From Polyangiaceae bacterium (lineage in GTDB: Bacteria > Myxococcota_A > Polyangia > Polyangiales > Polyangiaceae), in NCBI GenBank assembly GCA_947475525.1, contig CANJMI010000003.1, positions 124,001 through 188,000 on the forward strand: a stretch of 64,000 bases of DNA, in the 5' to 3' direction. Every line of letters starts with the position of its first letter. Within the stretch, counting starts at the first letter, position 1. Position numbers and translations under genes: made by a program. This document shows, piece after piece, positions 2,084 through 56,777 of this stretch. Below the pieces are notes generated by a model. It worked only from the letters and a program-made list of their open reading frames with translations. It searched no databases and was not told the origin of the DNA.

Positions 2084-2086
2084 GCC

Positions 2087-2827: not shown

Positions 2828-2837
2828 GGTAGCACCC

Positions 2838-4715
2838 ATGGAACGCAAACAACGTGCAGCCAGGCTTTCGGGCGTCTACCTCGCGGTGGTCGCAATCGCG
2901 ATCGCCCTCGTCAACGTCATCGGCTGGAACCTCAACAAGCGCGTCGACGTCACTAAAAACGAGCGATTCACCTTGTCGAAGGGCTCGGCCAACCTCGTCT
3001 CGAAGGGCCTGAAGGAAAACTTCAGCATCAAGCTCTACGTGACCAAGGGCCTGCCGACCCTCGATCTCTTCGTCGATGATTTGACCAACTTGCTCGGGGA
3101 GTACGAACGCGCTTCCGGCGGAAAACTCACCTACCAGGTGATCGAGCCGAAGACCGACGAGCAAAAAGAAGAGGCGAAGGCCCACTGCGCGAGCGGTGGC
3201 TGCCAGCCCCTTCAAATGCAGCCGTTCGGCGAAGGCAGCGAGCAAGCCGATCAAGCCACGATCACCCAGGGCTACATGGGCGTCGTGTTGGAGTACGGCT
3301 CCGAGGAAGACACGATCCCCGTGCTTTCGCCCGAGAACACCCAGGGCCTCGAGTTCTGGATCACGAACAAAGTGCGCCAGCTTCGCGACAAGGTCGACGA
3401 CAGCTCGCCGCGTATCGGACTCGTGAAGAAGGAAGGCATCACGATCAACGACGAGAACCTCGTTCCCGGCGGTCGTGGAGCCGGTCCGAACATGAAGGGG
3501 ATCCTCTCGCAGCACTTCCCCTTCTACAAGTTCGAGGATGTCGATCTCGATGGCGGTAAAAAGGCCGTCGACGAGAAGATGAGCGGCGTCATCATGATGC
3601 AGGCCGACAAGGACTGGACGGACGCCGAGCTCGCTCGCGTCGATGAGTTCCTGATGCGGGGCGACAAGTCGCTGCTCGTCATCTCGGGCGCGGTCAACAT
3701 GAAGGCCGCCGATCCGTCGATGAAGGGCGAGCTGAACCTCCGCAACTTGGACAAGCTCGTCGACGCCTACGGCATCGAGATGAAGAAGGAAGCGATCTTC
3801 GAGTGGGGCCAGAGCGTGCGCTTGCCGATGCAGGACGCGGGCTCGGGCCGCCAGCAGTGGATCGTGTTCCCCGGCGTCTTGACGCTGACGAACACGCCTG
3901 AATTCGACGAGAAAAACCAGCCTATCGACAGCTCGTTCACCGGATTCTTCCGCATGGAGCAGCTCGGCATCGGGTTCCCGTCGCCGCTGATTGGCCATCC
4001 GGAGAAGCAGCCTCAGGCCAAACTAAAGACCGTGCTCAGGACGACCGAGAACGCCTCGGTCGACGGCGACAGCCCGGTCGATTTCGGAATGAAGCTTTCC
4101 TGGCCCCAAGAGGGCAAAGGCGCGCGCGCGCAGCATGACATCGCGATTGAAGTCTCCGGCATCTTGAAGAGCGCGTTCTCGGCCAAGAAGCCCGAAGGGT
4201 TCACCGGGGACATCCCAGGCGAATCGAAGGCTCCGAGCCGCGTCCTCGTCATCGCGGCCGGGCAGTTTCTCGCGAATCCGTTCGCACGTGCGGGCAACGC
4301 CCCGCCGATGCCGCCGCAAATGGCGATGATGGGTCCGGTCGGCGGCGACCGAAACCTCCAGTCGATTGCCCAGGTCTACGCGCAGGCGACCTACGTCACC
4401 AACGCGATCCTCGGCTTCAAGAACCTGCTCGACTGGATCTCCAACGACACCGACCTCATCGCGACGAGCGCCAAGCTCACGAGCGATCCGCAGCTCACTT
4501 ACGGTGATGTCGCGAAGCCCAAGTTCGATCCCACCAAGGACGACGAGAAGGCCGCCCAGAAGCGCAACGAAGAGTGGCGTGACGAGCGGCGTGCCCTGCA
4601 GAACAAGATCAGCTCGACGCTCACGTTGCTTCCGCCGATCCTGTTCATGTTGTTCGGCATTGCCCGATGGCGCCGGCGTGAGGCGAACCGCGCCAACGTG
4701 AAGCTCGCAGCCTGA
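2838..4715 (+). CDS. GldG-like ABC accessory protein
   Basis: The 625-residue protein has one N-terminal membrane anchor (about residues 12-32), a long soluble region and a C-terminal membrane helix near residues 598-615 followed by RWRRRE. The start of the soluble part, DVTKNERFTLS.GS, and the overall plan fit the GldG/ABC-auxiliary family, whose soluble domain resembles IFT52-type folds and is thought to sit in the periplasm as part of the transporter. The ATG at 2838 is chosen because GAGGT lies 7 bases upstream; a longer reading from 2727 would overlap the permease gene. It is the third gene of the cluster. Confidence 0.82.
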   Translation: MERKQRAARLSGVYLAVVAIAIALVNVIGWNLNKRVDVTKNERFTLSKGSANLVSKGLKENFSIKLYVTKGLPTLDLFVDDLTNLLGEYERASGGKLTYQVIEPKTDEQKEEAKAHCASGGCQPLQMQPFGEGSEQADQATITQGYMGVVLEYGSEEDTIPVLSPENTQGLEFWITNKVRQLRDKVDDSSPRIGLVKKEGITINDENLVPGGRGAGPNMKGILSQHFPFYKFEDVDLDGGKKAVDEKMSGVIMMQADKDWTDAELARVDEFLMRGDKSLLVISGAVNMKAADPSMKGELNLRNLDKLVDAYGIEMKKEAIFEWGQSVRLPMQDAGSGRQQWIVFPGVLTLTNTPEFDEKNQPIDSSFTGFFRMEQLGIGFPSPLIGHPEKQPQAKLKTVLRTTENASVDGDSPVDFGMKLSWPQEGKGARAQHDIAIEVSGILKSAFSAKKPEGFTGDIPGESKAPSRVLVIAAGQFLANPFARAGNAPPMPPQMAMMGPVGGDRNLQSIAQVYAQATYVTNAILGFKNLLDWISNDTDLIATSAKLTSDPQLTYGDVAKPKFDPTKDDEKAAQKRNEEWRDERRALQNKISSTLTLLPPILFMLFGIARWRRREANRANVKLAA

Positions 4716-4728
4716 AGAGAACGACGAG

Positions 4729-5856
4729 ATGAAAACCGAGCAAAAACTGGTCGTTTCCGGCGTCGCGTTGCTCGCCCTCCTGGGCGGATACGTCATGACC
4801 CGCCAGGGCAAAGAGAAAGACACGAAGGCCCACATGGCCTCCGTCGCGAAGAACCTTCCGAAGGTCGGCGTGGCGAAAGAACAGGGCGAGAAGGTCACCA
4901 AGCTCGTCGTGAAGAGCAAGGACCACGATGAGGTCGTGCTCGAGAAGAAGGGCACCGTGTGGCGGCTCTCAAAGCCCCTCGATGCGCTCGCGAGCGCAAG
5001 CAACGTCGACGCGATCTTGAAGAACCTCGAGAAGCTCGAGCTCGGGACGGTGATCGCGGACAACGCGGACGAGAAGACGTTCGAGAAGTACGAGCTCGAC
5101 GAGAAGAATGCGACCCACGTCCAGGTGTTCGCCGGCGACGAGAAGGTCCTCGACGCGTACTTCGGTAAGAGCGGCACGCGTGGACAAATCGCGCGGCTCG
5201 GTGGCAACCCGGCTGTCTACACGGCCAAGGGTTACTCGAGCTTCCTCTTCGCAAAAGAGGTCAAGAGCTGGCGCGATACCGACATCCTCAAGTTCGAGGA
5301 CGGCAACGTCATCGCCATCGAGCTCGACAACAAGTCGGGCAGGTTCAGCTTCACGAAGAACGCGGACAAGTGGTCCGGGGCCTTCTACGGGCGCGACGCG
5401 AAGACCGGCGCGGTGGCGGAAAAGGCCTCCAAGTGGGAGCGCTTCGACGAAGCCAAAGTCAAAGACCTCCTCACGGCGTTCAAGAACTTGAAGGCGAGCG
5501 ATTTCGCCAAACAGGGTGCCGATACCGGCATCGACAAGGCCGCCGAAGAGGGCGGCGTTCTCAAGGTGAAATTCAAGGATGGCAACGGTGACGTTGTCCT
5601 CAAGGTCGGCAAAAAGCAGGAAGCCGACAACCGCTACCTCGTCAAGGAGGGCGGCGATGGGACCATTTTCGTGATCTCCAGTTATTCGGCGGCGTTGGCC
5701 GTCGGTGACGTGGAGAAGTTCTCGAAGCCCGATCCGAATGCCAAGGGCAAGGACGCGAAAGACGGCAAGGATGCCGCGGGTGATGCGCCCGATATGCCCG
5801 AGATGCCCGGAATGCCCGGCATGCCGAGCATGCCCGACATGGGCGGGATGGAATGA
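4729..5856 (+). CDS. DUF4340 domain protein, membrane-anchored
   Basis: The 375-residue protein starts with MKTEQKLVVSGVALLALLGGY, a single signal anchor. The body, with repeated segments such as VWRLSKPLDALAS and FGKSGTRGQIARLGG, fits the DUF4340 family, whose genes usually sit right after gldG-like genes. The protein probably contacts the transporter from the periplasmic side, but no biochemical role is established. The C-terminus is a Met/Pro/Gly repeat (MPEMPGMPGMPSMPDM) that is unusual and may be flexible or metal-binding. The gene starts 13 bases after gldG and looks like the last member of the cluster. Confidence 0.8.
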   Translation: MKTEQKLVVSGVALLALLGGYVMTRQGKEKDTKAHMASVAKNLPKVGVAKEQGEKVTKLVVKSKDHDEVVLEKKGTVWRLSKPLDALASASNVDAILKNLEKLELGTVIADNADEKTFEKYELDEKNATHVQVFAGDEKVLDAYFGKSGTRGQIARLGGNPAVYTAKGYSSFLFAKEVKSWRDTDILKFEDGNVIAIELDNKSGRFSFTKNADKWSGAFYGRDAKTGAVAEKASKWERFDEAKVKDLLTAFKNLKASDFAKQGADTGIDKAAEEGGVLKVKFKDGNGDVVLKVGKKQEADNRYLVKEGGDGTIFVISSYSAALAVGDVEKFSKPDPNAKGKDAKDGKDAAGDAPDMPEMPGMPGMPSMPDMGGME

Positions 5857-5941
5857 CGCCGCGTCGCGTTCGGCCCTTCGGCTGACGCGCGCATCGCGGT
5901 GAGCTTGTCGCCGCGGGCGTGCAGTGTCATGCCCCGGCGTC

Positions 5942-8383
5942 ATGCGTGCGAGCTACAACTGGCTGCGTTCTCTCGTCCCTGGACTCAACGCGTCGGCGCG
6001 TGACGTCGCGGAGCGGCTGACCCGCTCGGGGCTCGAGGTCGAAGACATCGTCGAGTACGGAGCCGCGTCCCTCCACGTCGTCGTGGCGGAAGTGAAGCAG
6101 GTCGCTCCGCACCCGAAGCACGAGAAGCTCACGCTCGTGACCGTGGACCGCGGCGGCGTCGAACAGACGGTCGTGTGCGGCGCGCCAAACGTACCGGCAC
6201 CCGGTCGAAAAGTGGTGCTCGCCCCGCTTGGAGTGACTTTGCCCGCGGTCGGCATGACGATCGCTGCGCGCTCGGTTGGAGGCGTGCCAAGTGAAGGCAT
6301 GCTGTGCTCGGAGAATGAGCTCGGGCTCGTCTCGGGTGGGGGTAAAGGCGAAGGCATCATCGTGTTCCCCGAAGGCTTCGACGCCCGGCCGGGGACGCCG
6401 CTCGCGAAGGCGATACCCGCGACGCACGACGTGATCTTCGAGCTGGGCGTCACGCCGAATCGTCCGGACGCGCTCGGCCACGTCGGCATCGCGCGGGAGC
6501 TGGCCGCTCTCTTCGAGCTGCCTTTCGCCGCGCCGCCGAGTGATGCGCCGGCGCGCGTCTCCTCCGGTGCGCGCATCGAAGCGCTCGCCAGCGTGGTCGT
6601 CGAGGATACCGAGCGCTGTCCGCACTATGCCGCGGCCCTGCTCGTCGAGGTCAAGGTCGGCCCTTCACCTGCGTGGCTTCGGTACCGTCTTGAGAGCCTT
6701 GGCGTAAGATCGGTATCGAACGTCGTCGATGTGACGAATCTCGTCCTCCTCGAGTACTGCCAGCCGATGCACGCGTTCGATCTCGACAAGCTTCCCGGCG
6801 GGCGGATCGTCGTGCGACGTGCCCGACCCGACGAGAAGCTCGTCACGTTGGATGGCGTGGAGCGCGCGCTCGATCCGGATGATTTGCTGATCACGGACGG
6901 GGAGCGAGGCGTGGCGCTCGCGGGGGTCATGGGTGGCTCGAACAGCGAGATCGGCGAAGGCACCAAACGGGTGCTCCTCGAGTGCGCGCACTTTACGGCG
7001 CGGGGGATCCGGCGCTCGTCGCGGCGCCATGGACTTCACACCGAGGCGAGCCATCGCTTCGAGCGCGGTTGCGATCCCGAGCCTATCGCCGAAGTGCTCG
7101 CGCACGCGGCGGCCATGATGACGCGGCTCTGCGGCGCCTCCGCGGTGAAGGGCAGCATTTTCGCTGGGGTTCCACTCGCGGCGAGTCCCATCGTTCGCTA
7201 CCGCCATGTGCGCGCGACCGGGGTGCTCGGCTTCGAGGTGCCGCTCGATGAAGCGAGTCGCATCCTCTCGCGGCTCGGGTGTGAGGTGCAGCGTCTTTCC
7301 GGGGACGAGCTGCTCGTCACGACGCCGAGTTTTCGGCCTGACCTCACGCGCGAGGAGGACCTGATCGAGGAGGTCATGCGGGTACACGGAATCGATTCGG
7401 TTCCGGTGGTCGCGCGCGCCGTCGTGCCGAAGGCGGGTCGCTCGACGCCGACGTTGGAGCTCCGCGTTCGGCGTGCGGCCGCAGCGCTCGGTTTGAGCGA
7501 AGCGTTGACGTTCGGTTTCACGAATGCCGCGGCGCTCGCCGCGATTGGGGCAGAGACCCCGGTGGTCACGCTCAAGAACCCGCTCACCGAAGATCGCAAC
7601 GTGATGCGCACGAGTCTCTTGCCGGGGCTCTTCGATGCGCTCTCGCGGTCCCGTCGGCATGGGGTACGTGACGTCCGATTGTTCACGGTTGGCCGGATTT
7701 TCCTGCCCTCTAAGAATGGCGACGTCCTCCCCGTCGAGCGGCTCATGTTCGCGGCGGTCCTCGCGGGGAGCCGCCCGACGGCGCTCGGGAGAGGCGATGC
7801 GCAAGACGTCTACGATGCCAAGGGGCTCGCGCTCGAGCTTGTGGAACGCGTCACGAGCTTGCCTGTCACCGTCCTGCCTGGCGGGGCGGCCCACTTGCAT
7901 CCGCGAGGTGCGGGCTCGGTCGTCGTCGACGGTCGCGAAGTCGGGCGCCTCGGCCCCGTGCATCCCGACGTCATCGAGAAGCTCGACCTCGACGGTGACT
8001 GCCTGGTCGTCGAGCTCGACCTGTCCGTCCTCGGTGAGTTCACCGGCGGCGTGTCTCAGTTCCGCGCGATCGCGCAGCTTCCCGCAGTCACGCGCGACCT
8101 CGCTCTCGTCGTGCACGAGGATGTGGCCGCCGGCGCGTTGTCGGCGTCGATTCGTGAGTCGGCCGGGGTGTTGTGCGAGTCCGTCGAGCTCTTCGATCTC
8201 TACCGCGGCAAAGGCCTTCCCGAGGAGCACAAGAGCCTCGCGTACCGCGTCGTGTTTCGCGATCCGAAAGCGACGAGCGCTCCCGACCAAGCGCGCACCT
8301 TGACCGACGCCGAGGTGGATGGATGCACGCGGGTTGTGATCGAGGCCTTGAAGGAGCGGCACGGCGCTGTCGTCCGCGGGTGA
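5942..8383 (+). CDS. pheT: Phenylalanine--tRNA ligase beta subunit
   Basis: PheT forms the alpha2-beta2 enzyme that charges tRNA-Phe in the cytoplasm. The 813-residue length is normal. The order is a tRNA-binding domain (about 44-155, with VVCGAPNV), the B3/B4 editing region with HTEASHRFERGCDP, the B5 domain, the core fold and a C-terminal anticodon-binding domain (LPAVTRDLALV). The ATG at 5942 gives the standard N-terminus MRASYNWLRSLVP; a GTG at 5924 would add six residues. The partner pheS, normally just upstream, is not in the window, so the alpha subunit must be encoded elsewhere. The stop overlaps the start of the crotonase gene. Confidence 0.95.
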   Translation: MRASYNWLRSLVPGLNASARDVAERLTRSGLEVEDIVEYGAASLHVVVAEVKQVAPHPKHEKLTLVTVDRGGVEQTVVCGAPNVPAPGRKVVLAPLGVTLPAVGMTIAARSVGGVPSEGMLCSENELGLVSGGGKGEGIIVFPEGFDARPGTPLAKAIPATHDVIFELGVTPNRPDALGHVGIARELAALFELPFAAPPSDAPARVSSGARIEALASVVVEDTERCPHYAAALLVEVKVGPSPAWLRYRLESLGVRSVSNVVDVTNLVLLEYCQPMHAFDLDKLPGGRIVVRRARPDEKLVTLDGVERALDPDDLLITDGERGVALAGVMGGSNSEIGEGTKRVLLECAHFTARGIRRSSRRHGLHTEASHRFERGCDPEPIAEVLAHAAAMMTRLCGASAVKGSIFAGVPLAASPIVRYRHVRATGVLGFEVPLDEASRILSRLGCEVQRLSGDELLVTTPSFRPDLTREEDLIEEVMRVHGIDSVPVVARAVVPKAGRSTPTLELRVRRAAAALGLSEALTFGFTNAAALAAIGAETPVVTLKNPLTEDRNVMRTSLLPGLFDALSRSRRHGVRDVRLFTVGRIFLPSKNGDVLPVERLMFAAVLAGSRPTALGRGDAQDVYDAKGLALELVERVTSLPVTVLPGGAAHLHPRGAGSVVVDGREVGRLGPVHPDVIEKLDLDGDCLVVELDLSVLGEFTGGVSQFRAIAQLPAVTRDLALVVHEDVAAGALSASIRESAGVLCESVELFDLYRGKGLPEEHKSLAYRVVFRDPKATSAPDQARTLTDAEVDGCTRVVIEALKERHGAVVRG

Positions 8384-41752: not shown

Positions 41753-41794
41753 GATACGCAATAAAAATGCGAGGGTGGTATAGTGTCGGCGCCA

Positions 41795-43201
41795 ATGCTC
41801 GGAGGGAAGCCACAGATCCTGGTCGTCGATGATGAGGCGAACCTGCGCCGCGTTCTTTCGGCGCAGCTTTCGCGCGACGGCTACGAGGTCCACACCGCAG
41901 AAGACGGCGAGCGTGCGGCGGCTTTCATCCGCGAGCATCACGTGGACCTCGTCATCAGTGATCTACGGATGCCGAAGATGGGCGGGCTCGAGCTCCTGCG
42001 TTGGGCGCAGCTGGAGGAGCCTAAGCTTCCGGTGATGATCTTGACCGCCTACGCCACCGTCGACACGGCGGTCGAGGCATTGAAGATCGGGGCGGTCGAC
42101 TACATATCGAAGCCCTTCGACCAGGATGAGGTGCGTCGCCTCGTGCGAAAGGCGCTCCAGGTTGGGCAGCTCGCGCACCGCGACGCTTCGCACCCCGGCG
42201 CACGCGGGTTGCCCGACGGGACTCGCTTCGGGATGCTCGGTTCGAGCAAGGCCATCTGTGACCTTTACGTCTTGCTCGACCGCGTTGCGGCGACGCCGAC
42301 GACCGTGCTCGTCACGGGTGAAAGCGGCACCGGAAAAGAGCTCGTCGCCCGCGCACTTCATGAGCACTCGAGCCGCTCCACGCGCCCTTTCATCAAGGTC
42401 AACGCGGCCGCCATTCCTCAAACGCTGATCGAATCCGAGCTTTTTGGTTACGAGCGGGGGGCCTTCACCGGTGCGGTGGGAAGCAAGCCGGGACGCTTCG
42501 AACTCGCGCAGGGCGGCACGCTCTTTCTCGATGAAATAGGCGAGATCCCCCTCGAGATGCAGGTGAAGCTTTTGCGCGTGCTGCAAGAGGGCGAGCTTGA
42601 ACGCGTCGGTGGCGTGAAGACGATTCGCGTCGATGTGCGTCTGATCGCCGCCACGAATCGCGATCTGCGGCGCGAGACGGCGGCGGGGCGTTTTCGAGAG
42701 GACCTTTATTACCGCCTCAACGTCGTGCCGATCGAATTGCCACCGCTACGAGATCGTTCGGGGGACGTCCCCGTGCTCGCTCGTTTCTTCCTCGACAAGT
42801 TCAACGCGCGGCTCGGAAAGCACATCGAAGGGATCGACGAGGATGCCCTCGCGGGTCTCGCTCGCTACCGCTGGCCCGGCAACATTCGCGAGCTTGAGAA
42901 CTTCATCGAGCGCGCCGTGCTTTTCGCGGATGGGGCCCGTATTACGCTGCGCGATCTGCCCACCGAGGTAACCGGTGCGACGCCGTTGCCGCCGGCCCCG
43001 AGCGCCGATTCGGGCAATTTTGGCGAGGGCCTGAAGGAACAAGTACGTGCGGCGATGTCACGCATCGAGCGGGACTTCATCTTACGGGCGCTCGAGCAGA
43101 CCACCGGCAACGTCACTCACGCGGCTCGCCTCCTCAAGATTTCGCGCAAGGGGCTCCAGCTCAAGATGAAGGAACTCGACTTGCGGGAACGTAACGACTG
43201 A
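41795..43201 (+). CDS. Sigma54-dependent response regulator, NtrC type
   Basis: The 468-residue activator has a receiver domain (about 8-120) with the acidic pair in VVDDE, phospho-Asp in VISDLRMP and Lys in YISKPF. The AAA+ domain (about 140-375) has Walker A GESGTGKE, the sigma54-contacting loop GAFTGA, Walker [10 protein letters not shown] and [14 protein letters not shown] Fis-type HTH ([21 protein letters not shown]) ends it. All key residues are intact, so it should be phosphorylated by an unseen kinase and drive sigma54 promoters. The ATG at 41795 is preferred to a GTG at 41783 that lies within TATAGT. It shares one base with the next gene. Confidence 0.93.
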
Positions 43202-44394
43202 TGCGGGGTCGATGGTCTCGCGCCGTTGCCTCCTCGGTCGCACTCGTCGTGTCCTTTGTCGCGGTCGCCTGCAAATCGCCTGAGAAAAACGACTCTCCTG
43301 ATGACGCGCCTCCGCCGTGGGCATCGGCTCCTGCGGGGGCTCCTGAGCGCCCAGGCATGGTGTGGGTGCCCGCTGGTGCATTGCTCGCGGGGACGCCACC
43401 CGGGCGGCTGCCGCGCATTGCCGATCAGGAGTTGCCCGGCGATAAGATGGAACTTCGCGGCTTCTTCATCGACCGTTTCAACTACCCGGGAGAACCTGGC
43501 GCGATCCCCGAGACTGGGCTCACTCAGGCGGCGGCGCGGGCTGCGTGCGACAAACAGGGCAAGCGCCTCTGCACCGAGCTCGAATGGGAGCGGGCCTGCA
43601 AAGGGCCAGACAACCTCACTTACGAGTACGGGGACACGTTCGACGGTGCGACCTGCGGCATGGACTCGGCCGATGCGTTGGCTCCCAACGGGCTCAACAC
43701 GCGCTGCGAGAGCAAGTGGGGCGTGCGCGATCTTCACGGCAGCGCGTGGACGTGGACGTCGAGCGCGTGGGGCCGCGGCACGGACGGCACGAAGGTCTCG
43801 GTTCGCGGTGGCTTTGGAAAAAATGGCGCTCTCGTCGGGCGCTGCGCACATGCCCGCGCGCTGAGTCCGACCGAACGTGACGCGGCGGTGGGCGTTCGCT
43901 GTTGTGCCGGTGAGGTCAACTCGGCCGAAGTGGCGCTCGAGGTGACGCGCAAAACCGAACTCACGTGGAAAGCGGCCTCGGCCGCCGTGGCATTGCAACT
44001 CGAAGCGCTGGCGCCAGATGGACTCAGCAATCAGTCAAAATCCAGCAAATTGCCACCATTTCACGTCGAGCGGACGTGGGTTTGGCGCCCGATCGGCAAC
44101 GAGGAGCTGACCATTGGCGGAGGCTGCGCGAAGCGTGCGAGCGCCGACGTTTGCGGCATTCTCGTCGTTCGGATGAGCGACACCGGGCCGCAGCGACTGG
44201 CGTGGGTTTCGAGTGACGAATGGATAGCCACGGTGGCCCGTCACGAGTCTTCGCGCGGCGTCTACGTCTACGGCGGCGATCAGCTCGGCGCTTACCGAAA
44301 AGCGGTGATGTTCGATTGGGGGACGATCACCGAAGGGCGCAAAGAACGGAAAAAAAACGGAGGTTGGGTGCGCCCGCCCGACAGCCTCCGTTGA
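43201..44394 (+). CDS. FGE-sulfatase-like domain lipoprotein
   Basis: The 397-residue lipoprotein has a signal ending VAVAC (lipobox Cys near residue 24). A formylglycine-enzyme-like domain (about 50-235) follows, with MVWVPAG, FFIDRF, GKRLCTELEWERACKG, DLHGSAWTWTSSAW, VRGGFGKNG and GVRCCAGE. In myxobacteria many such domains are non-enzymatic and sit on surface or signalling proteins. The C-terminal 150 residues match nothing I know. The ATG overlaps the stop of the NtrC-type gene (TGATG), so it is probably co-transcribed and may be a cell-surface partner of that pathway. Confidence 0.8.
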   Translation: MRGRWSRAVASSVALVVSFVAVACKSPEKNDSPDDAPPPWASAPAGAPERPGMVWVPAGALLAGTPPGRLPRIADQELPGDKMELRGFFIDRFNYPGEPGAIPETGLTQAAARAACDKQGKRLCTELEWERACKGPDNLTYEYGDTFDGATCGMDSADALAPNGLNTRCESKWGVRDLHGSAWTWTSSAWGRGTDGTKVSVRGGFGKNGALVGRCAHARALSPTERDAAVGVRCCAGEVNSAEVALEVTRKTELTWKAASAAVALQLEALAPDGLSNQSKSSKLPPFHVERTWVWRPIGNEELTIGGGCAKRASADVCGILVVRMSDTGPQRLAWVSSDEWIATVARHESSRGVYVYGGDQLGAYRKAVMFDWGTITEGRKERKKNGGWVRPPDSLR

Positions 44395-44444
44395 CGGCCT
44401 AGCCTCCGTTGACGGCCTAGCCTCCGTTGACGGCCTAGCCTCCG
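44385..44444. repeat. Tandem repeat, 18-base unit, three full copies
   Basis: The unit CCTCCGTTGACGGCCTAG occurs at 44385-44402, 44403-44420 and 44421-44438, with CCTCCG following. The copies are identical. The array covers the last 10 bases of the FGE-like lipoprotein gene and the stop of the small lipoprotein on the other strand; every copy carries CTA, an in-frame TAG for that gene. Confidence 0.9.
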
Positions 44445-44662
44445 GTGCCGCCGTTGCCCGAGGCTGTAGCGCCCGCGCCTCCGATGCCGCCGTTCCCTCC
44501 GCCGCCGCTCGTCACGGTGACCTCGGCGGTGCTCATTGAGCTGCTCGGAGCGGCCCCCTGTTCGAAGCGCTCCTTGTCCTCCAAGGTGCCTGGGCAGCCT
44601 GCCGCGGTCAGCAGAGCGGCCGTCGCGGCGACGATGGTCGTAAGGGTCGATCCGGGGCGCAT
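44435..44662 (-). CDS. Small Gly-rich lipoprotein
   Basis: The 75-residue protein has a signal peptide with lipobox LTAAGC (Cys about residue 22), an acidic patch LEDKERFEQG, then a Gly/Ala/Thr-rich tail (VTSGGGGNGG and GNGGTGG). The ATG at 44662 is chosen because GGAGAG lies 4 bases upstream; longer readings overlap the preceding gene. It starts 22 bases after the outer-membrane-type gene on the same strand. The TAG stop lies inside the third copy of the 18-base repeat. I do not recognise a function; it looks like a small outer-membrane lipoprotein. Confidence 0.6.
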   Translation of the reverse strand: MRPGSTLTTIVAATAALLTAAGCPGTLEDKERFEQGAAPSSSMSTAEVTVTSGGGGNGGIGGAGATASGNGGTGG

Positions 44663-44684
44663 GGTGCTCTCCATTGGGTGGCGT

Positions 44685-46154
44685 TCAGTAACGGTAGCCG
44701 CCGAGAAGTCGGAGCTCGAGGGTTTCATCGAGTGCACCGCCGGCAACGAACGCGTCACCGACCTCGGGTGCGAATGAAGAGAAAAACCGCGTGTAGTCGA
44801 AGCCAGCTCGCACTTCGATACCCGAGCCGAGTGCGACGGAGGCGTCGATCCCGAGCGCGATACCTTTTACGGAGGCGCCTCGGAACCGGGCGTACACCGT
44901 GTCGTCGATGGGTTCGGGTGCGATCGCACCACCGAGCTGTGGCCCCGGGATGCGATCGGCAGGGGCGCTGCCTCCGAGGGGTGCGAGGTACGAGAAGCGG
45001 GGGATGACGGCAAACATGCCGAACGGCAACCAAGCGTCTGCGCCAACGCGGACGTACTTGTAACGAACGGTCGGCACCTCCAGCTTGATAAGCTCGGCCG
45101 CGGCGTTTGCTGGCAGGAATACGAAGTTGTGGAAGCCATACGCGGCAGACAGGCCGAGCACGATGGGCTGTGCATCCTCGCCGAAGCGCAATCGGTAGCG
45201 CAGGCCGAGGTCGAGGCGGTTCCATGTGCCATCGAATTCGGCGGACTCGCTGCCGTCCGGGTTCTGACTCGTCTTCGATTTGAGGGCGAAGTGGTGCGTG
45301 TAATCGAAGGTCACGCCGATATCACGGACGCCGGTAATTCCGCTTGTCGCGCCGGGATAGATCTCACCTGCGAGGTTCAGCGCGGGCGGACCGAACACGG
45401 CGTAAGGGCGCGTGTTGTTTGCAGAGATCGGGTCCGAGTATTTGAACCAGCGCCCGCCGTCTTGGAATCCAAGGCGCCCAGCCGCAAGCTCGTAACCCGC
45501 GATCCCTGAGCGGAAAGGCGAGTCCGTTTTTTCCTTTTCCGGTTTTTCGGCCTCGCCTTCGCCTTCGCCAGCGTTGCCCCCTGCGTCCGCATCGATCACC
45601 TTTGGTGGCGGAGGGGCAAGCGGCTTTAGCGACTCTTCGAGGGCGTTCTTGATGGCCTTGCGCTGAGCGGCGTCGCTGTTGCCGAGGTTTACGTTCTCGT
45701 CGACCTCCGCGACCTCGGCATCCTTTACGTAGAACACGACGTAGAGGTCGTGGCTCTTTCCGACGAACGTCTCGCGGGCGAGAACGAGGGCATCGGCGCC
45801 GACCTTTGCCATCGCCTTGTTGAGGTTGCGTTGGATCGACTTGCGGGTAAATTTGTTCTGAATCGCCGCACCGAGAGCGGTCGGGAGCCCGCCCTGCCGT
45901 AAGGCCTTGTCGAATTCGGTTGGGTCGAGGATCTCGATGCCGTCAGGTCCCGCCGCTGTGATCTGATCGGCGATCGCGGCTGCGTTTTTACCTTCGACGT
46001 GAACGACGAGCTTTTTCGCTGGCGCCCCTTCGGTTGTGGAGGCGCCGTCGCTCGCGAGAGCGCGTCCTTCGACGACGCAGACGAGCGAGCCCGCCACGCA
46101 TCCGATGCTGACCATTCCCCTGGAGAGCGACGCCCAACGCCCAAGCCGATTCAC
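44685..46154 (-). CDS. Outer-membrane beta-barrel-like protein with N-terminal soluble domain
   Basis: The 489-residue protein has a signal peptide ending near GRALA (about residue 34). A 130-residue soluble domain (KLVVHVEGKNAAAIADQI ... LPTALGAAIQNK) follows, then an acidic linker with GEGEGEAEKPEKEK. The C-terminal region has alternating hydrophobic strands (FDYTHHFALKS, WNRLDLGLRYRLRFG, RAGFDYTRFFSSF) and ends LRLLGGYRY, as in outer-membrane barrels that finish with an aromatic residue. The GTG at 46154 has GGAGTAGGG 8 bases upstream. The function is unknown. It is probably co-transcribed with the small lipoprotein. Confidence 0.68.
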   Translation of the reverse strand: MNRLGRWASLSRGMVSIGCVAGSLVCVVEGRALASDGASTTEGAPAKKLVVHVEGKNAAAIADQITAAGPDGIEILDPTEFDKALRQGGLPTALGAAIQNKFTRKSIQRNLNKAMAKVGADALVLARETFVGKSHDLYVVFYVKDAEVAEVDENVNLGNSDAAQRKAIKNALEESLKPLAPPPPKVIDADAGGNAGEGEGEAEKPEKEKTDSPFRSGIAGYELAAGRLGFQDGGRWFKYSDPISANNTRPYAVFGPPALNLAGEIYPGATSGITGVRDIGVTFDYTHHFALKSKTSQNPDGSESAEFDGTWNRLDLGLRYRLRFGEDAQPIVLGLSAAYGFHNFVFLPANAAAELIKLEVPTVRYKYVRVGADAWLPFGMFAVIPRFSYLAPLGGSAPADRIPGPQLGGAIAPEPIDDTVYARFRGASVKGIALGIDASVALGSGIEVRAGFDYTRFFSSFAPEVGDAFVAGGALDETLELRLLGGYRY

Positions 46155-46263
46155 AGCTCGGACCCTACTCCAAACGTTAGCGAGCGTGCATCGAATCCGA
46201 GGTGCACGCTCATCGTGCCGCACCATTGGCATGGGGCGTGGCGCCACGCGAAACGCTGCTAGG

Positions 46264-46956
46264 ATGTGGGCCGTGCGCCCTCAAGAACAAGCTGCCGTGA
46301 GACGAGGCGCGGCCTTTGCCGTTGTGGCGCTCGCGCGGGAGGAGCTCCGGCGGACGCGGTGGGCTCGATTCGGGTGGGTAGGCATCGCCATTCCAGTGTT
46401 GCTGGTGCTGGGAGGCGTCGTCGGGGATGCCTCGGATACCCGTCCCAATGAGGCGGCGACGCTCCTCGCGAACATCGTGGTGTGGTCGACCTGGGCATGC
46501 GCAGGTCCGATCGCGCTCGGTGCGGCTGGGGCCTTCGAGCCGTCGGCCCGGTCGCGTGGGGTGGGGTGGCTGCTCGTCCTGCGCGATGTTTCTCGCCGCG
46601 CCTGGCTCGGTGCCAGCGCTCTCGCCGCCATGCTCGAGATCGCGTGGCGTCTCGCCGTTCCGTGGGTGCTGCTCGCGCTGTGTCTCGGATGGCACGCTCG
46701 CTCTCGGGCCGTGGCCGTGATGTCCCTTTCGTTGCTTGCCCTCGCGGCGTTCACTGGCGTGCTGCTCGGTGGGGTCGCGACAGTGTGCTCAGCGCTAGCG
46801 GGCGTCCGAGGGCGCACCCTCTTCGCCGTTGTGGTGGTCGTTCCGTGGCTTTTCGCGAAGGCGTATTTCGATTCGCCGCTGTCCGTTCCGGGGCTGCTCC
46901 AGCGCGCATGGGACCTCGTTGCCGCACACAACACCTCGATCGTGGGGCTCGCGTGA
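46264..46956 (+). CDS. Membrane protein, ABC-2 permease-like, of the pseudo-ABC module
   Basis: The 230-residue protein has about six hydrophobic segments (first near 32-52). It starts with a basic cytoplasmic piece containing VVALAREELRRTRWARFGWV, as in ABC-2 permeases, and lacks the EEKRSGT coupling segment of the GldF-like protein at 2087. I do not recognise a closer family. The ATG at 46264 has no good ribosome-binding site; a GTG at 46273 is an alternative. The stop overlaps the next gene by GTGA. Confidence 0.68.
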   Translation: MWAVRPQEQAAVRRGAAFAVVALAREELRRTRWARFGWVGIAIPVLLVLGGVVGDASDTRPNEAATLLANIVVWSTWACAGPIALGAAGAFEPSARSRGVGWLLVLRDVSRRAWLGASALAAMLEIAWRLAVPWVLLALCLGWHARSRAVAVMSLSLLALAAFTGVLLGGVATVCSALAGVRGRTLFAVVVVVPWLFAKAYFDSPLSVPGLLQRAWDLVAAHNTSIVGLA

Positions 46957-47975
46957 GCGACCTCGAATACGCACCGCGTGGTACCGACAGCGTCCGCCTT
47001 GTCGGCGTGCACGCCTCCGATAGCCTAGGCCTCCGCGGTGGCGCAATTGGGCGGCTTCGCGGCGTCGATTGGACATTCGGACCTGGCATCCACGCCGTCG
47101 TGGGCACCGTTGCCGACGGCACCGCGGCCCTCGCAAGCGTTCTCACCGGCGAGCTGCGACCCGAGGTCGGCTCGTGTCTCGTGGACGGCGTATCGCCTTT
47201 CGATTCCCCCGCGTCCCGCCGCCGAATTGGCGCGCTCTTGCCAAAACCAACCCCGCTCGCGGGAAGCGTGGAAGAGCTTGCCCTATTCTGCGCGGGTCGG
47301 GCCGGCTGGGAAGCTCTGCTCGAACGCTTCGATCTTGGCGCCTTGGCATCGCGGCAACTCGCGACGCTTGCTTTGCGGGATGCGCGCGCCGTCGAACTCG
47401 CGCTGGCCTTCGGGACGGTCTCGCCTCGGCTCTTGGTGTTGTTCGAACCGTGGAGTGATGTTCGAGGGATCGACGTGATGGAATTTCGAGAGCTCCTGCT
47501 CGAGCACGCCGCCACGGTTCCGGTCGTCCTGCTCACGAGCTCGCTCGCTTGCGTCGCGCCGCTCACCGAGCACGTTCTCTTCCTCGCGGGTGGCCGGTTT
47601 GCTGCGCTCGACGGCACGGTGGGATGGCTCGCACGCGCGTCGCAGAAACTCAACGTGACGATCGATTGTCGCAGTGGCCTCGCGGTACGAGAGCTCGCAC
47701 ATGCCCTCTCGACGCGGCTACCGCTTGCCCGCGGAGTGAGCTGGGAGCACGTTGACGGGGAAGCTCCGTTCGGCGTCGTCTCGGTCGTGGCCGACGACCT
47801 CGAAGCGGTGGCGCTCACGGTCGCGCAGGTCTGCCAAGAGCTCGCCGTCGAGGTCCGCTCGATCGCGACGCCACCACTCGATCGTGAGGCGCTCCTCAGT
47901 CAGGTTTTACGCGCTCGATTGGATGGCGCAAGCGAGTCTGAAGGTGCCTACGCCTCAACGTTGAGGCCGCGATGA
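46953..47975 (+). CDS. ABC ATPase-like protein without catalytic motifs
   Basis: The 340-residue protein follows the layout of an ABC ATP-binding domain: RLRGVDWTFGPGIHAVVG, SCLVDGVSPFDSPASRRRIGALLP, a helical part, then LLVLFEPWSDVRGIDVMEF, VVLLTSSL and HVLFLAGGRFAALDGT. The key parts are changed. Walker A is GTVADGTAAL with no GK(S/T), the signature LSxGxxQR is LALRDARA, the Walker B Asp is Phe (LFEP) and the switch His is Ser (LTSS). ATP hydrolysis is therefore unlikely. The last 120 residues resemble the C-terminal extension of GldA-type ATPases. The GTG at 46953 overlaps the upstream gene, and the stop overlaps the downstream one, by 4 bases each. Confidence 0.78.
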   Translation: MSDLEYAPRGTDSVRLVGVHASDSLGLRGGAIGRLRGVDWTFGPGIHAVVGTVADGTAALASVLTGELRPEVGSCLVDGVSPFDSPASRRRIGALLPKPTPLAGSVEELALFCAGRAGWEALLERFDLGALASRQLATLALRDARAVELALAFGTVSPRLLVLFEPWSDVRGIDVMEFRELLLEHAATVPVVLLTSSLACVAPLTEHVLFLAGGRFAALDGTVGWLARASQKLNVTIDCRSGLAVRELAHALSTRLPLARGVSWEHVDGEAPFGVVSVVADDLEAVALTVAQVCQELAVEVRSIATPPLDREALLSQVLRARLDGASESEGAYASTLRPR

Positions 47976-48655
47976 TGCGCGCCGCGCGGCTCGGCTTCGC
48001 CCTTGGTTGGTCCCGCCTCCCACCACGGCGCGTGGCGGTTCTCGCGTTGCTGGGTACGCTCGCATCGTCCGGGGTCGCGTTGGCCGTTCGGTCGTCGTCG
48101 CCGCTCGCGGCTCCGAATGTCGTAGCTTCGTTGGTTTTTGGGCTCGTATTGCCGCTTACGGCCTACGGAGCGGTGTCGACCGGATCGGGCTCGACCGATT
48201 TGTCGAGCGCTACATGGCCGGCGGCTCGCCGTGGCTTCTCCCGTCGCCCCGTCGCAATGGGCCTCGCACTCGCGGCTTTTGTCGCCACGCTCGCGGTGGT
48301 GTTTCCGGTGCTGCTCGTCGGTTTTGGTGTCGCTTATCGCGCCACGCCTGGCTTCTCAAAGGACTGCGTGACGAGCGGTGGACTTGTCGCGCTCGGCGCT
48401 GCTGCTTACGTTTCCGCGTTCAGTTTGGCCTCGACGGCGATGCGGCGCGGGCGCGCTCGGAGCTTGCTCTTGTGTCTCGATTTTTTCGTGGGGGCTTTCG
48501 GCTCGGCGTTCAGTCTTCCGTTCCCGCGGGCCCACTTGAGGAGCCTCCTCGGCGGCGAGGCGGTCGCCATGTTGTCGCAGCGTCAGAGCTCCGGCGCACT
48601 GCTCACACTGACGCTGGTCGCGTTCGTGATGGCGCTCGTTCGCCTGCGTCGCTGA
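47972..48655 (+). CDS. Membrane protein, third gene of the pseudo-ABC module
   Basis: The 227-residue protein has about six hydrophobic segments (22-40, 49-70, 93-118, 135-153, 166-184 and 208-223) and short Arg-rich loops such as MRRGRARS and RRGFSRRP. It is permease-like, but the family is not recognised. The ATG overlaps the pseudo-ATPase stop (ATGA), so the three genes should be made together. The 3' end overlaps the convergent TetR gene by 53 bases. Confidence 0.65.
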   Translation: MMRAARLGFALGWSRLPPRRVAVLALLGTLASSGVALAVRSSSPLAAPNVVASLVFGLVLPLTAYGAVSTGSGSTDLSSATWPAARRGFSRRPVAMGLALAAFVATLAVVFPVLLVGFGVAYRATPGFSKDCVTSGGLVALGAAAYVSAFSLASTAMRRGRARSLLLCLDFFVGAFGSAFSLPFPRAHLRSLLGGEAVAMLSQRQSSGALLTLTLVAFVMALVRLRR

Positions 48656-49274
48656 CGCTGTGGCTGCTGCTCGACGAAGGCGGCGTGGGACCGAACATCG
48701 ACAGCATTGCCGCGGCGAGATCGCGTCGCAAGGCCACTGGGCTCTTCTTTAGTCCGACCGCGGCCACGATGAACGGCTCGAAGAGCAGCCAGCCGAGTCC
48801 GAGCGCCATCGCCATCGCCACGGGCGTTCGCGGATCGACGTCGCTGCGGAGCTGTCCCCGCTTTTTCGCATCGCGCGCGATCGCGAGGAGCGCGTCGACG
48901 ACAGGGAAGCGCTGTTGGAGGTCGGCGACATCGCTGCCGTCGAGCAGCGCACGCGCGAGCACACGGAGGTAGCGGCTCTGTCCCAACGCGAGGAGCATGG
49001 TCAGCGGCAAGCTCTCCGGGGGCGAGTCGCCTTTCGCCGGGAACGCGTGGAGCTCACCGCCGAGCATCTCCATCACGGCACGCACGACGCCTTCTTTCGA
49101 ACCGAAATGCCGATGAACGAGGCCATGGTTCACCTGCGCGGCGGCGGCGATGTCGCGGACTGTAATCGCCGACGGCCCGCGCGAAGCGAGGAGGTTCGCG
49201 GCAGCTTCGATGACCGCGCGGCGTACTTCTTCTCGACCTCGCGGCAGCGCCTCCGTGGTCGCTTTGCGCGTCAC
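48603..49274 (-). CDS. TetR family transcriptional regulator
   Basis: The 223-residue regulator has the TetR helix-turn-helix (about 15-62: RRAVIEAAANLLASRG, ITVRDIAAAAQVNHGLVHRHFGSKEGV) and a helical ligand domain. The C-terminal 25 residues are Ser/Arg-rich. The GTG start overlaps the stop of the sulfatase-like gene as GTGA, so it is co-transcribed with it, and the palindromes upstream of that gene are its likely operators. The overlap with the convergent membrane protein gene may add antisense interference. Confidence 0.88.
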   Translation of the reverse strand: MTRKATTEALPRGREEVRRAVIEAAANLLASRGPSAITVRDIAAAAQVNHGLVHRHFGSKEGVVRAVMEMLGGELHAFPAKGDSPPESLPLTMLLALGQSRYLRVLARALLDGSDVADLQQRFPVVDALLAIARDAKKRGQLRSDVDPRTPVAMAMALGLGWLLFEPFIVAAVGLKKSPVALRRDLAAAMLSMFGPTPPSSSSSHSVSDAGERAPSRTRPASV

Positions 49275-53116: not shown

Positions 53117-53206
53117 ACGCGAAGTCTACCAGTCCGGTCCGCCGGCGGGCGACCTCGTGGCGGTGTCAGTCGCGGGGCGCCCGGGAATCGCGTACGCTGT
53201 CGCACA

Positions 53207-54700
53207 ATGAAACCGATTGGCGCGGCCAAGGTCATCATCCGACGGTGCGACAGTTACGACATCGACGCGATCCGCCAGATCGTCCGCGAGGGTCTCGAAG
53301 AGTTGGGGCTGCAGCCGCATGGTCGCACGCTCCTCAAGCCGAACTGCGTGTCCTCTGGGCCGATGTTCCAAAATGCTTACACGAGGCCGGAGTTCTTGGA
53401 AGGCGTACTCCTCGCACTGCAGGATCGCGATGGCGGCATGACCGAGCTCGCAGTCGGAGAGCGCTGCGGCATCACGATTCCCACGCGCACGTCCTTCGAA
53501 GGCGCTGGTTATTACCCCGTTTTCAAGCGCACCGGCGTCAAGCATTACCACTTCGAGGAGGTGCCCCAGGTCGAGATCCCCCTCACTCACGAGGCGCGTC
53601 TTCGCGACTACATCTTCACGCCCGAGCCGGTCGCTCGCGCCGACTTTTTTGTCAATTGCCCGAAGTTCAAGTCGCACCCGTGGACCACGGTGACCTTCGC
53701 GATGAAGAACTACATTGGCATCCAGGACGACCGCCATCGGCTGATCGATCACGATCATCGGTTGAACGAAAAGATCGCCGATCTGCAGCACATCATTCAG
53801 CCGCAGTTCATTGCCATCGACGCCATCACCGCCGGTGCCGGCCGCATGTTGACGCCGATCCCCTTCGACCTCGGCCTGATCATCATGGGCAACAACTCCG
53901 TCGGTTTCGACACCGTTTGCTCGCACATCATCGGGCTCGATCCCGAAACGATCGAACACATTCGCTTCGCGCGTGAGCAGGGCTTTGGGCCGACCGCGCT
54001 CGAGGACATCACGATCACCGGAGACGTCTCGCTCGAGGAGGCGCAGGCCAAGGCTCGCGGGTTTCAGGTGGGCCTCGTGCGGGTCGAGAAGTACTTCGAG
54101 GGCACTCACATCAGCGCGTACGCCGGCCCACCGCCGGAGTTGGAGCGCACGGATTATTGTTGGGGAGGTTGTCCCGGAGCGATCGAAGAGGCCGTCGAGA
54201 TCCTCCGGCTTTTCGACGCGGACTTCGATGAAAAAATCCCGCATATGCACGTCGTTTTCGGCGCGTATGACGGTCCTATCGACGTAAAACCCGGCGAAAA
54301 GGTGGTCTTCATCGGTGACTGCGCGAAGTTCGAAGGCACGCTCGGAGACAAGCTCGTTTCGGTCAAGAGCCTCTACCGCGACCGCGCGACGAAAGATCCG
54401 CACGAGGCCGAACACGACGACATCCTCGCGAAGATTTTTTCGGTGCGCGCGACGTTGCGTGATGCGCGGGACGAGCCGTTCATCCGGCTGGAGGGTTGTC
54501 CTGTGAGCGTGGCGGAGCAGGTACTCGCGCTGGTGATGATCGGCGGCACGAAAAACCCTTACATGTCCGCGAGCGAGGCCATGCGTTTCAACAAGGGCTA
54601 CCTGATGTGGAAGGGCACGATGGCGGCGAAACGGCTCCGCGGCATCCCGTATCAGAAGCATGGGGCGTTCGAAGAACGCGGCGAGTCGGCCCCCGAGTGA
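53207..54700 (+). CDS. DUF362 domain protein
   Basis: The 497-residue protein contains the DUF362 layout: GRTLLKPNCVSSGPM, VGERCGITIPTR, FVNCPKFKSHPWTTVTFAMKNYIG and DAITAGAGRM. It also has DYCWGGCPGAIEEA, where two Cys could bind metal. DUF362 proteins are sometimes fused to ferredoxin domains, but none is present here. The function is unknown. The ATG at 53207 gives MKPIGAAKVIIRRCDSYD; a much longer reading from 52502 is antisense to the GH57 gene and rejected. TACGCT (53193-53198) lies 8 bases upstream. Confidence 0.82.
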   Translation: MKPIGAAKVIIRRCDSYDIDAIRQIVREGLEELGLQPHGRTLLKPNCVSSGPMFQNAYTRPEFLEGVLLALQDRDGGMTELAVGERCGITIPTRTSFEGAGYYPVFKRTGVKHYHFEEVPQVEIPLTHEARLRDYIFTPEPVARADFFVNCPKFKSHPWTTVTFAMKNYIGIQDDRHRLIDHDHRLNEKIADLQHIIQPQFIAIDAITAGAGRMLTPIPFDLGLIIMGNNSVGFDTVCSHIIGLDPETIEHIRFAREQGFGPTALEDITITGDVSLEEAQAKARGFQVGLVRVEKYFEGTHISAYAGPPPELERTDYCWGGCPGAIEEAVEILRLFDADFDEKIPHMHVVFGAYDGPIDVKPGEKVVFIGDCAKFEGTLGDKLVSVKSLYRDRATKDPHEAEHDDILAKIFSVRATLRDARDEPFIRLEGCPVSVAEQVLALVMIGGTKNPYMSASEAMRFNKGYLMWKGTMAAKRLRGIPYQKHGAFEERGESAPE

Positions 54701-54707
54701 GCCCGCT

Positions 54708-55235
54708 GTGCAGCGAATCATCGACGTTTCTGCATCTTCGGTGACGTTGCGCACGCGCGCGACCGGCCTCTTCGCTCGGTTTGCGCACGACCTCGAGATC
54801 GAGGCCCGTGGGTTCAGCGGTTGGGTCGAGGTCGAAGGCGCGAGCACGACCGCGGAGCTTACGTTCCCCGTCGCGGAGCTTCGCGTCGTCGGCGTTTTGC
54901 GAGCTGGACGAGTCGCTCGCAACGTCCTTTCGTCGAAGGACGTCCTCGAGATCGAGCGGAAAGTACGGATGGAGGTGCTCGTCGGCCCCACCGTCATCGT
55001 GAGGTGGAGCGGCGACCTGCTGCGTGGGGAGCTGCGCGTCGTCGCACCGCGAGGCGAGCAGCGCCTCGCCGTCGCGGTCACGGTCGACACGAAGAGCGAC
55101 AGCACACTCGTGGTGCGCGGGCGCATGCGCATCTCACTTAACCGACTTGGCTGCCCCGAGGTCAAGGCACCGTTCGGGGCGTTCAAAGTGGCGGACGATG
55201 TCGATGTCGAGGCCGTCCTCGCGCTCGGTGCGTAA
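54708..55235 (+). CDS. YceI-like beta-barrel protein
   Basis: The 175-residue protein starts RIIDVSASSVTLRTRATGLFARFAHDLEI, close to YceI-type lipocalin-like proteins that bind isoprenoid lipids, with the FAHDLEI segment near the ligand opening. No signal peptide is present, unlike exported YceI. The GTG at 54708 lies 8 bases after the DUF362 stop and is preferred to an ATG at 54660 inside that gene. The two genes are likely co-transcribed. The call rests on the N-terminal pattern and size only. Confidence 0.6.
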   Translation: MQRIIDVSASSVTLRTRATGLFARFAHDLEIEARGFSGWVEVEGASTTAELTFPVAELRVVGVLRAGRVARNVLSSKDVLEIERKVRMEVLVGPTVIVRWSGDLLRGELRVVAPRGEQRLAVAVTVDTKSDSTLVVRGRMRISLNRLGCPEVKAPFGAFKVADDVDVEAVLALGA

Positions 55236-55279
55236 CCGGGCGAGGCGCCTCGACGTCGTCGTGTTTCTCGCTCGCGCTG

Positions 55280-56575
55280 TTAGCGTTTTGCTTTGCCGGA
55301 GCTCGCGGCAGGGGCGGCCGGCAGTTGGTACTTCGGTGGCAGCGGATTGCCGACCGCAGTGACTGTCTTCGCGCGGGCAAGCGCTTGCGTACTCTTGAGT
55401 CCCCGCCCAGCGAAAGCCGCCGTCGCAAGCGCGGCGGGTGCCGTCCGCACGTCGAGCGGATTGCCCGCGGGCACGAGGCTCTCGATGTAAACCGCGCCCG
55501 GGGCCAAGGACAACCCGTGCGCCGTCTGTTCGACGTGGGGAGCCACGCGGCCGTCGGCTCCAACGGTGAAGAAGAACGTGCGCAGTGACTTGCCTTCGCC
55601 GTTGCGCCACTCGCATTCCCAAGCGCCGGGCGTCTTGCCGATGTCGGTCGCCTCGTTGCGCGGCGCGCCCCCCGCGAACGTCAGCGGAAGCTCGAGGTAA
55701 TAGGTGCGAAATAGGATCGAGTCCTTGTCGAGCCGCGGATTGCCCGTCGGATTCGGTGTCTCCGCCTCCGCGACGATCCCTCGACCCGTCGAGACATGGA
55801 CGCCGTCGATCGTCGCGCCGCTGGTGGGTCCGAAGGTCCAGGGCGTCTTCAGGTTGACCGGATTGCCGTCGACGCGGCAGCGCACGTAGCTGTCGCGCGT
55901 TGGATCGTCACCCGAGTAGGCAGGCGCGGCCTGGACGATCACGTCGATGCCGTTGCCGTTCGAGAGGCTGGGGGACTGCCCGGGTTGCAAGTAGCCCGGG
56001 CTCGCGTTGGTGCGCTGGTAGAGGACCGTGCTCGCGAGCTCGCCGTTGCGGTCCGGGTACATCACCGGGTACCAGGGGCGGGTCGTCGCGCCGAGGTCGT
56101 AGCGCGGTGCGGCTCGGACGATCATCGTGTCCGTGCCGAGAAGCGTATTGGCGTCGGTATCGCCATCGATGAAATGCCATTCGAGCTGGTATTCCCCCGG
56201 CTCGCGGAGCTTCAGCTTGCGGTCCGTGCAACGCTCCGCGAAGAGGTGCGGCAGGCCGTTCTTCAGGACCGAGCTGTACATCGAGCGTGTTTCGCAGCGC
56301 ACTTCGCCGAGCGCTTTGCCCTTCTGCTTGAGGATGTAGAGCAACACCGAGCGGTCGGGGAACGACCCCCAAATGCGGTAGGACGCTTGAACCGTCCAGT
56401 CCGACTTCGGGTCCGCGGTTCCGCCCGTATCGGAGACCCCCGACGAATCGATTGTCTGGAACGAAAACGCCTGATCGACGACCGGCGCGTCGGCATGCGC
56501 CTCGCTGGCGGCAAGGATGACTGAGGCGCTCAAGCCCAAAGCGCCAAAGACGGCAGCGTGCGTCGGGATCTTCAT
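55280..56575 (-). CDS. Secreted protein of unknown function
   Basis: The 431-residue protein has a signal peptide (about 1-29, cleavage near AHADA). It contains several Cys (VRCETRSM, AERCTDRK, VRCRVDG, WECEWRNGEGK) that may form disulfides. The body is beta-rich, and the last 90 residues are Ala/Pro-rich, ending in a Lys/Arg tail. It is in the same direction as the GH57 gene but far from it. I do not recognise the family. The ATG at 56575 gives a clean signal sequence. Confidence 0.65.
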   Translation of the reverse strand: MKIPTHAAVFGALGLSASVILAASEAHADAPVVDQAFSFQTIDSSGVSDTGGTADPKSDWTVQASYRIWGSFPDRSVLLYILKQKGKALGEVRCETRSMYSSVLKNGLPHLFAERCTDRKLKLREPGEYQLEWHFIDGDTDANTLLGTDTMIVRAAPRYDLGATTRPWYPVMYPDRNGELASTVLYQRTNASPGYLQPGQSPSLSNGNGIDVIVQAAPAYSGDDPTRDSYVRCRVDGNPVNLKTPWTFGPTSGATIDGVHVSTGRGIVAEAETPNPTGNPRLDKDSILFRTYYLELPLTFAGGAPRNEATDIGKTPGAWECEWRNGEGKSLRTFFFTVGADGRVAPHVEQTAHGLSLAPGAVYIESLVPAGNPLDVRTAPAALATAAFAGRGLKSTQALARAKTVTAVGNPLPPKYQLPAAPAASSGKAKR

Positions 56576-56777
56576 GGCCGGGACGCTAACGGGCTGAGTC
56601 GCGCGTTGCCAAGTGCATTTCGCGTCGAGCCCGTGCTTCGTGTAGCCGCCACGCTTACAGTGCCACCGGAATGCCTTGACGCACGTTGAAGGTGTAAGTC
56701 ATAGACCGCCCGACGCGCGGCCACTTTCGAGCCGCGAACATTTGGCGTCCCGACGGCGCCGCTCAAGGAGTCTCACA

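Follow-up and report, generated by a model that had tools for sequence, protein, structure and literature searches.

A family-wide Polyangiaceae operon whose only ABC gene lacks the ATP-site motifs

Why does a family of soil bacteria keep an operon laid out like an ABC exporter when the only ATPase gene in it has lost the motifs of the motor? The question is raised by three overlapping genes in a 64,000-nucleotide stretch of a Polyangiaceae genome (positions 124,001 to 188,000 of contig CANJMI010000003.1, assembly GCA_947475525.1; hereafter the window, in whose coordinates positions are given), where an ATPase-like gene, the pseudo-ABC, lies between genes for two membrane proteins, MP1 and MP2. 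Here we report that the motif loss is family-wide, that the trio is conserved and under purifying selection, and that an intact counterpart is present in sister families. Degenerate ABC sites are, to our knowledge, known only beside a canonical partner; what is new is a family-wide operon whose sole ABC gene is without the ATP-site motifs and which has a live counterpart in sister families. We found no description of this trio family in the open-access literature. The features of the locus are as follows.

46264 to 46956, plus strand: MP1, open reading frame with ATG start, a membrane protein of 230 aa with a predicted ABC-2-type permease fold (NosY-like)
46953 to 46956, plus strand: 4-bp stop/start overlap of MP1 and pseudo-ABC, GTGA, read from the sequence
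46953 to 47975, plus strand: pseudo-ABC ATPase, 340 aa by translation from a GTG start, a degenerate nucleotide-binding domain (NBD) with a small C-terminal alpha/beta domain
47103 to 47126, plus strand: former Walker A, GTVADGTA (Lys to Thr; family consensus GxPEDGT, with a new Asp55)
47367 to 47393, plus strand: former signature motif, LALRDARAV (family consensus LSxxEARAV)
47430 to 47450, plus strand: former Walker B, LLVLFEP (Asp to Phe; Glu-Pro kept)
47535 to 47543, plus strand: former switch (H-loop), TSS (His to Ser)
47634 to 47882, plus strand: C-terminal domain of the pseudo-ABC, approximate bounds, homologous to the C-terminal domain of the intact operon ATPase
47972 to 47975, plus strand: 4-bp stop/start overlap of pseudo-ABC and MP2, ATGA, read from the sequence
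47972 to 48655, plus strand: MP2, open reading frame, a membrane protein of 227 aa and second permease-like subunit

The frames, coordinates and two four-base overlaps had been given by an earlier, sequence-only reading of the window, and checking against the sequence returned all of them unchanged. That reading had also described a Walker A without GK(S/T), a lost signature, Phe for the Walker B Asp and Ser for the switch His, correctly in each case. Where the intact form has GPNGSGKT and YSRGMRQR, the window protein has GTVADGTA and LALRDARAV; its switch region reads LLTSSL, and the Q-loop and A-loop positions are likewise lost, while the catalytic-Glu position and the Pro that follows are preserved (E165, P166). 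Judged from these residues, the pseudo-ABC appears to lack what a functional ABC ATPase needs in Walker A, the signature, the switch His and the Walker B Asp.

The pseudo-ABC nevertheless belongs by descent to the ABC ATPase (NBD) superfamily, with homology above chance. By itself, the window protein scores E=0.0049 against Pfam ABC_tran, short of the curated cut-off, and it is absent from the list returned by a whole-genome search with that model; the same model matches 29 of 38 family members, the best at 1.1e-12. When the pseudo-ABC is compared with intact relatives profile to profile (hhalign), 294 columns align at E=1.1e-34, and the profile of the 38 members finds ABCA7 (7.8e-38) and NosF (2.1e-26) as its best matches among solved ABC proteins. 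The aligned columns run on through the C-terminal domain, whose bounds rest on them and on strands and helices at 221-294 in the model described below. The ABC layout ascribed earlier to the middle gene is thus borne out by profile homology and by an NBD fold.

The fold was modelled with AF2 from a 24-row alignment on a natural fusion of ABC and MP2 (a continuous 564-aa protein in one relative, L038/L156), not on the window protein. The model has a mean pLDDT of 83.5, exceeding 90 over most of the nucleotide-binding domain, and its NBD matches canonical NBDs with Z of about 22-24; the whole fusion aligns full length with ABCA1/ABCA4, at high rmsd. For MP1 the window protein itself was modelled (AF2, pLDDT 75.9). 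Its top structural matches are NosY, ABCA1, CcmB, ABCG25 and PmtCD chains (Z 9.8-13.2), all of one class, led by NosY (7o0z_E, VIA-align) at rmsd 3.6 over 197 aa and Z 13.2, a moderate score by the standard of helical proteins. MP1 is accordingly modelled as an ABC-2-type permease. By sequence, MP1 finds no convincing match among solved structures, and no consistent Pfam family, ABC2_membrane included, was found in 26 MP1 or 28 MP2 sequences. Standard annotation overlooks or misnames the trio, with the pseudo-ABC of the window below the Pfam cut-off and MP1 and MP2 without a family.

Among known systems, NosDFY offers a close comparison. MP1 shares the predicted fold of the permease NosY, both being of the ABC-2 class, and the ATPase NosF can be aligned with the modelled pseudo-NBD, in one alignment through the C-terminal domain as well. 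Unlike NosDFY, the trio has two different permease genes, and NosF, in contrast to the pseudo-ABC, is an active ATPase. Among the genes around the trio, none was recognised in passing as NosD-like or NosL-like.

Whether the altered motifs are peculiar to the window was a check that the sequence-only reading had proposed, and a census of 56 pseudo-ABC homologues and 11 intact ATPases, with 335 columns ranked by conservation, shows the alteration to be family-wide. The Walker A Lys and the switch His are each present in 0/56, the Walker B Asp in 5/56 and the signature Gly in 9/56. The Walker B Glu, by contrast, is kept in 53/56 (rank 2 of 335 columns) and the Pro after it in 56/56. New residues have appeared as well: an Asp directly before the last Gly of the P-loop in 49/56 (rank 9 of 335), where intact relatives have Ser or Ala, a Glu at the signature Met position in 43/56, and an Arg near that position in 51/56. 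Structural glycines, the Glu-Pro pair and the new P-loop Asp are among the best-conserved columns. Because some positions have turned variable while others have gained new conserved residues, the former ATP pocket has not drifted at random. By parsimony, the Walker A Lys and switch His were probably lost before the Walker B Asp, since they are absent everywhere while the Asp survives in some lineages.

The module is widespread in the family and nearly confined to it. Searches with the pseudo-ABC gave matches at E<=1e-8 in 61 of 108 Polyangiaceae genomes, some of the weaker ones being ordinary ABCs. With the MP2 profile (A2) taken as a module-specific marker, 86 of the 108 carry it, one copy each, and MP2 is undetectable by this profile in the other 22. 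Outside the family, one of 75 further genomes of the order gave a match, a weak one, and a class-wide search of 317 genomes added only one weak extra match in G106. Named carriers include Sorangium cellulosum (four strains), Polyangium species, Minicystis rosea and Byssovorax. Both membrane protein genes adjoin the pseudo-ABC on the same strand in 37 of 40 loci, and the remaining three are truncated where a contig stops, so the trio is complete in 37/37 loci whose contigs permit the test; ATGA or GTGA overlaps at both junctions are usual at most homologous loci. A small, very divergent trio-like arrangement in family f5 (L126, G157:C163:74000-84000, 3773-5777) has a weak MP2 match (E=8.7e-15); it may have been transferred or have decayed independently.

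The trio itself forms the conserved core. Upstream of it in the window (41783-46247), three genes encode a sigma-54 response regulator, an FGE-sulfatase-like lipoprotein and a protein of 520 aa that matches nothing in Pfam. Synteny of the regulator and lipoprotein genes extends over many Polyangiaceae loci, Sorangium and Polyangium included, and this shared upstream pair therefore marks one inherited locus. Downstream the gene content varies: in Sorangium/Polyangium-like genomes (L042, L045, L060 and others), MP2 is followed by a protein of about 180 aa that looks YceI-like and had no Pfam match in the one copy tested, in another clade by a receiver-domain protein, and elsewhere by a glutathione-peroxidase-like protein or others. 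A TetR gene in the window (48603-49274, minus strand) was considered as a fourth member and rejected: it converges on MP2, and other loci have these other genes in its place.

Selection on the three genes was estimated by the simple Nei-Gojobori method. Against the nearest relative (G096), dN/dS is 0.33 for MP1, 0.26 for the pseudo-ABC and 0.21 for MP2, at dS of about 1-1.5, the upper value being close to saturation; for the pseudo-ABC it is 0.16-0.28 among Polyangium and 0.3-0.5 among Sorangium. The syntenic neighbours have lower values, 0.064 for the sigma-54 regulator and 0.133 for the FGE-sulfatase-like gene. These estimates point to purifying selection on the trio that is weaker than on its neighbours, a moderate constraint.

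A transporter operon that had become obsolete and was decaying slowly under neutrality would account for dN/dS above that of the neighbours (0.2-0.33 vs 0.06-0.13), for weak codon bias in the window trio, for the lack of the module in some Polyangiaceae genomes and for the strong differences among its most divergent members. Such decay is nonetheless very improbable: across dozens of genera the frames stay open and the gene order and overlaps are maintained, dN/dS lies well under 1, and the new residues have become conserved rather than random. Simple decay was rejected on the recurrent overlaps, dN/dS, motif conservation and trio adjacency. The sequence-only reading had likewise argued against random decay, and had suggested that homologues with intact motifs, together with relaxed selection here, would speak for it. 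Such homologues do exist, though only outside the family and in another operon lineage; selection on the trio is purifying, if weaker than on the neighbours.

In sister families, the best matches of the family profile that also include the C-terminal domain prove to be intact ATPases (GPNGSGKT, YSRGMRQR, LLDEP, STH), each flanked by a membrane protein on either side, with 4-bp overlaps as in the trio (e.g., L106, L108, L109). This operon shares with the trio the permease-ABC-permease order, the overlaps and the C-terminal domain of the ABC protein, and differs in having Walker A, signature, Walker B and switch all intact. Its MP1 and MP2 are longer than those of the trio (about 260-300 aa), and its MP2 in L106 matches Pfam ABC2_membrane_2. 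It lies in another genomic neighbourhood and has a different fourth gene of about 213 aa; no flanking genes are common to the two in six genomes over about 20 kb on each side. The product of this fourth gene (L105:2196-2834, L106:6040-6675 and equivalents) ends in a PP2C-like motif, with a weak, sub-threshold PP2C match in one copy, and none was seen beside the pseudo trio.

The membrane proteins of the two operons match by position. Full-length profile-profile comparison gives E=6.1e-9 for MP1 with MP1 and E=3.1e-4 (prob 39) for MP2 with MP2, the latter weak on its own, whereas the cross-pairs are weaker, at 0.024 and 0.11 (the latter for MP2 with intact MP1). In distribution the pseudo and intact forms all but exclude each other, with the profile of intact MP1 matching 32 of 75 genomes of the order outside the family and one of 108 inside it. 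That one genome, G106, carries the pseudo trio and a separate two-ABC operon, an intact ABC1-MP1-ABC2-MP2 arrangement (L125, G106:C165:34000-44000, 2548-6111) of a type seen in family f3.

In a careful tree of 39 rows, the pseudo clade is monophyletic (100/100) on a long stem of 2.08 changes per column, and it groups with the ATPases of the intact operon and not with the other ABCs of its genome, at a support (94/88) that is below the strong threshold. A first quick tree of 85 rows, in which the pseudo clade had a long branch and stood close to ABCs unrelated to it, is superseded; a tree constrained to the pseudo-plus-intact group has a higher likelihood than that tree (AU p 0.79). Gene order, profiles and tree thus make a good but incomplete case for orthology, and suggest the intact operon as the counterpart of the trio. 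From the position-wise matches of MP1 and MP2, the tree and the near-exclusive distribution, it follows that catalysis was lost once and early, with the operon kept.

A GldA-GldFG-like operon in the same window (923-4715) is, like the trio, of the ABC-2 class, and the motifs of its GldA-like ATPase are intact. That ATPase, at 923, had been offered as a direct comparison; it is indeed intact (Pfam E=2.6e-28), and it is not the closest intact relative. GldA/GldFG was rejected as the parent of the trio, the window GldA (CAN_L191) falling in the outgroup of the tree. GldF gave no significant profile match to MP1 or MP2 in single-sequence controls, which are weak in all cases, and we place weight on the profile-profile comparisons only.

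We favour, with moderate confidence, a history in which the ATPase of an ancient ABC-2-type exporter operon, of the order permease, ATPase, permease, ceased to bind and hydrolyse ATP in the ancestor that the Polyangiaceae share, and was kept as a pseudo-ATPase scaffold. The pseudo-ATPase would dimerise and dock on MP1 and MP2 as a normal nucleotide-binding domain does, and so docked would hold a heteromeric membrane complex together. The pseudo-ABC most likely serves an ABC-2-type membrane complex as a scaffold subunit that does not hydrolyse ATP, and the function of this complex is probably independent of ATP, because the motor residues are lost in every relative examined and yet selection maintains the protein. 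It might run without hydrolysis as, for example, a passive or ligand-gated path, or it might serve in membrane signalling or as an assembly platform.

Degenerate-site ABC pairs depend on the signature of the degenerate half, which completes the ATP site of the partner. Pdr5, TAP and TM287/288 resemble the trio in that one NBD lacks catalytic residues and is kept by selection all the same. Their partner domain is canonical and their degenerate half has a usable signature, whereas the only ABC gene of the trio operon is fully degenerate, its signature lost family-wide. These systems bear on a second explanation, in which the pseudo-ABC would be the dead member of an asymmetric pair and the hydrolysis of ATP would fall to an ATPase whose gene lies elsewhere. 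Asymmetric ABC pairs are common, with these three as precedents, and in Pdr5 a half without the Walker A Lys, Walker B Glu and switch His pairs with a canonical half (PMC7756269). The genome of the window has about 45 ABC genes from which a partner might come, and the related operons of family f3 and G106 have two different ABC genes each. A borrowed motor, which the sequence-only reading had also entertained, is unlikely even so, and less likely than a scaffold because the signature too is lost, which the dead half of known pairs keeps; moreover, no canonical ABC gene adjoins the trio in 40 loci, and in most sister families the intact operon encodes just one ABC protein.

The conserved residues of the former ATP site suggest a third explanation, in which the altered pocket would act as a sensor, binding a nucleotide or another ligand (a cation or basic metabolite) and so gating the MP1-MP2 complex. 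Binding would be through the Asp gained in the P-loop, the Walker B Glu that was retained and the Glu gained in the signature, and strong conservation of acidic residues at three former ATP-site positions is unexpected for a purely passive surface. We regard this as doubtful: the Glu-Pro pair could be retained for folding, and the new signature Glu adjoins the new Arg and may merely form a salt bridge. The version with a non-nucleotide ligand at a putative repurposed acidic site is similarly tentative, as is the gating by that site of an ATP-free ABC-2-type channel or signalling complex. If true, it would be a new use of the ABC fold.

With the scaffold as the preferred reading, Polyangiaceae keep an exporter-like operon whose sole ATPase gene is dead, and sister families keep the live version. 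Together the two operons offer a natural comparison of before and after, in which one may ask what is left for an ABC transporter to do once ATP is not used and which parts of its motor went first.

Further along the window, at 53126-56600, protein identity to the nearest relative (L035, G096:C44, 13600-17400) is 93-100% with hardly any silent changes, following about 50-85% up to roughly 53.1 kb. The jump in identity at about 53.1 kb has the look of a tract that recombined recently, or else of a mixed assembly.
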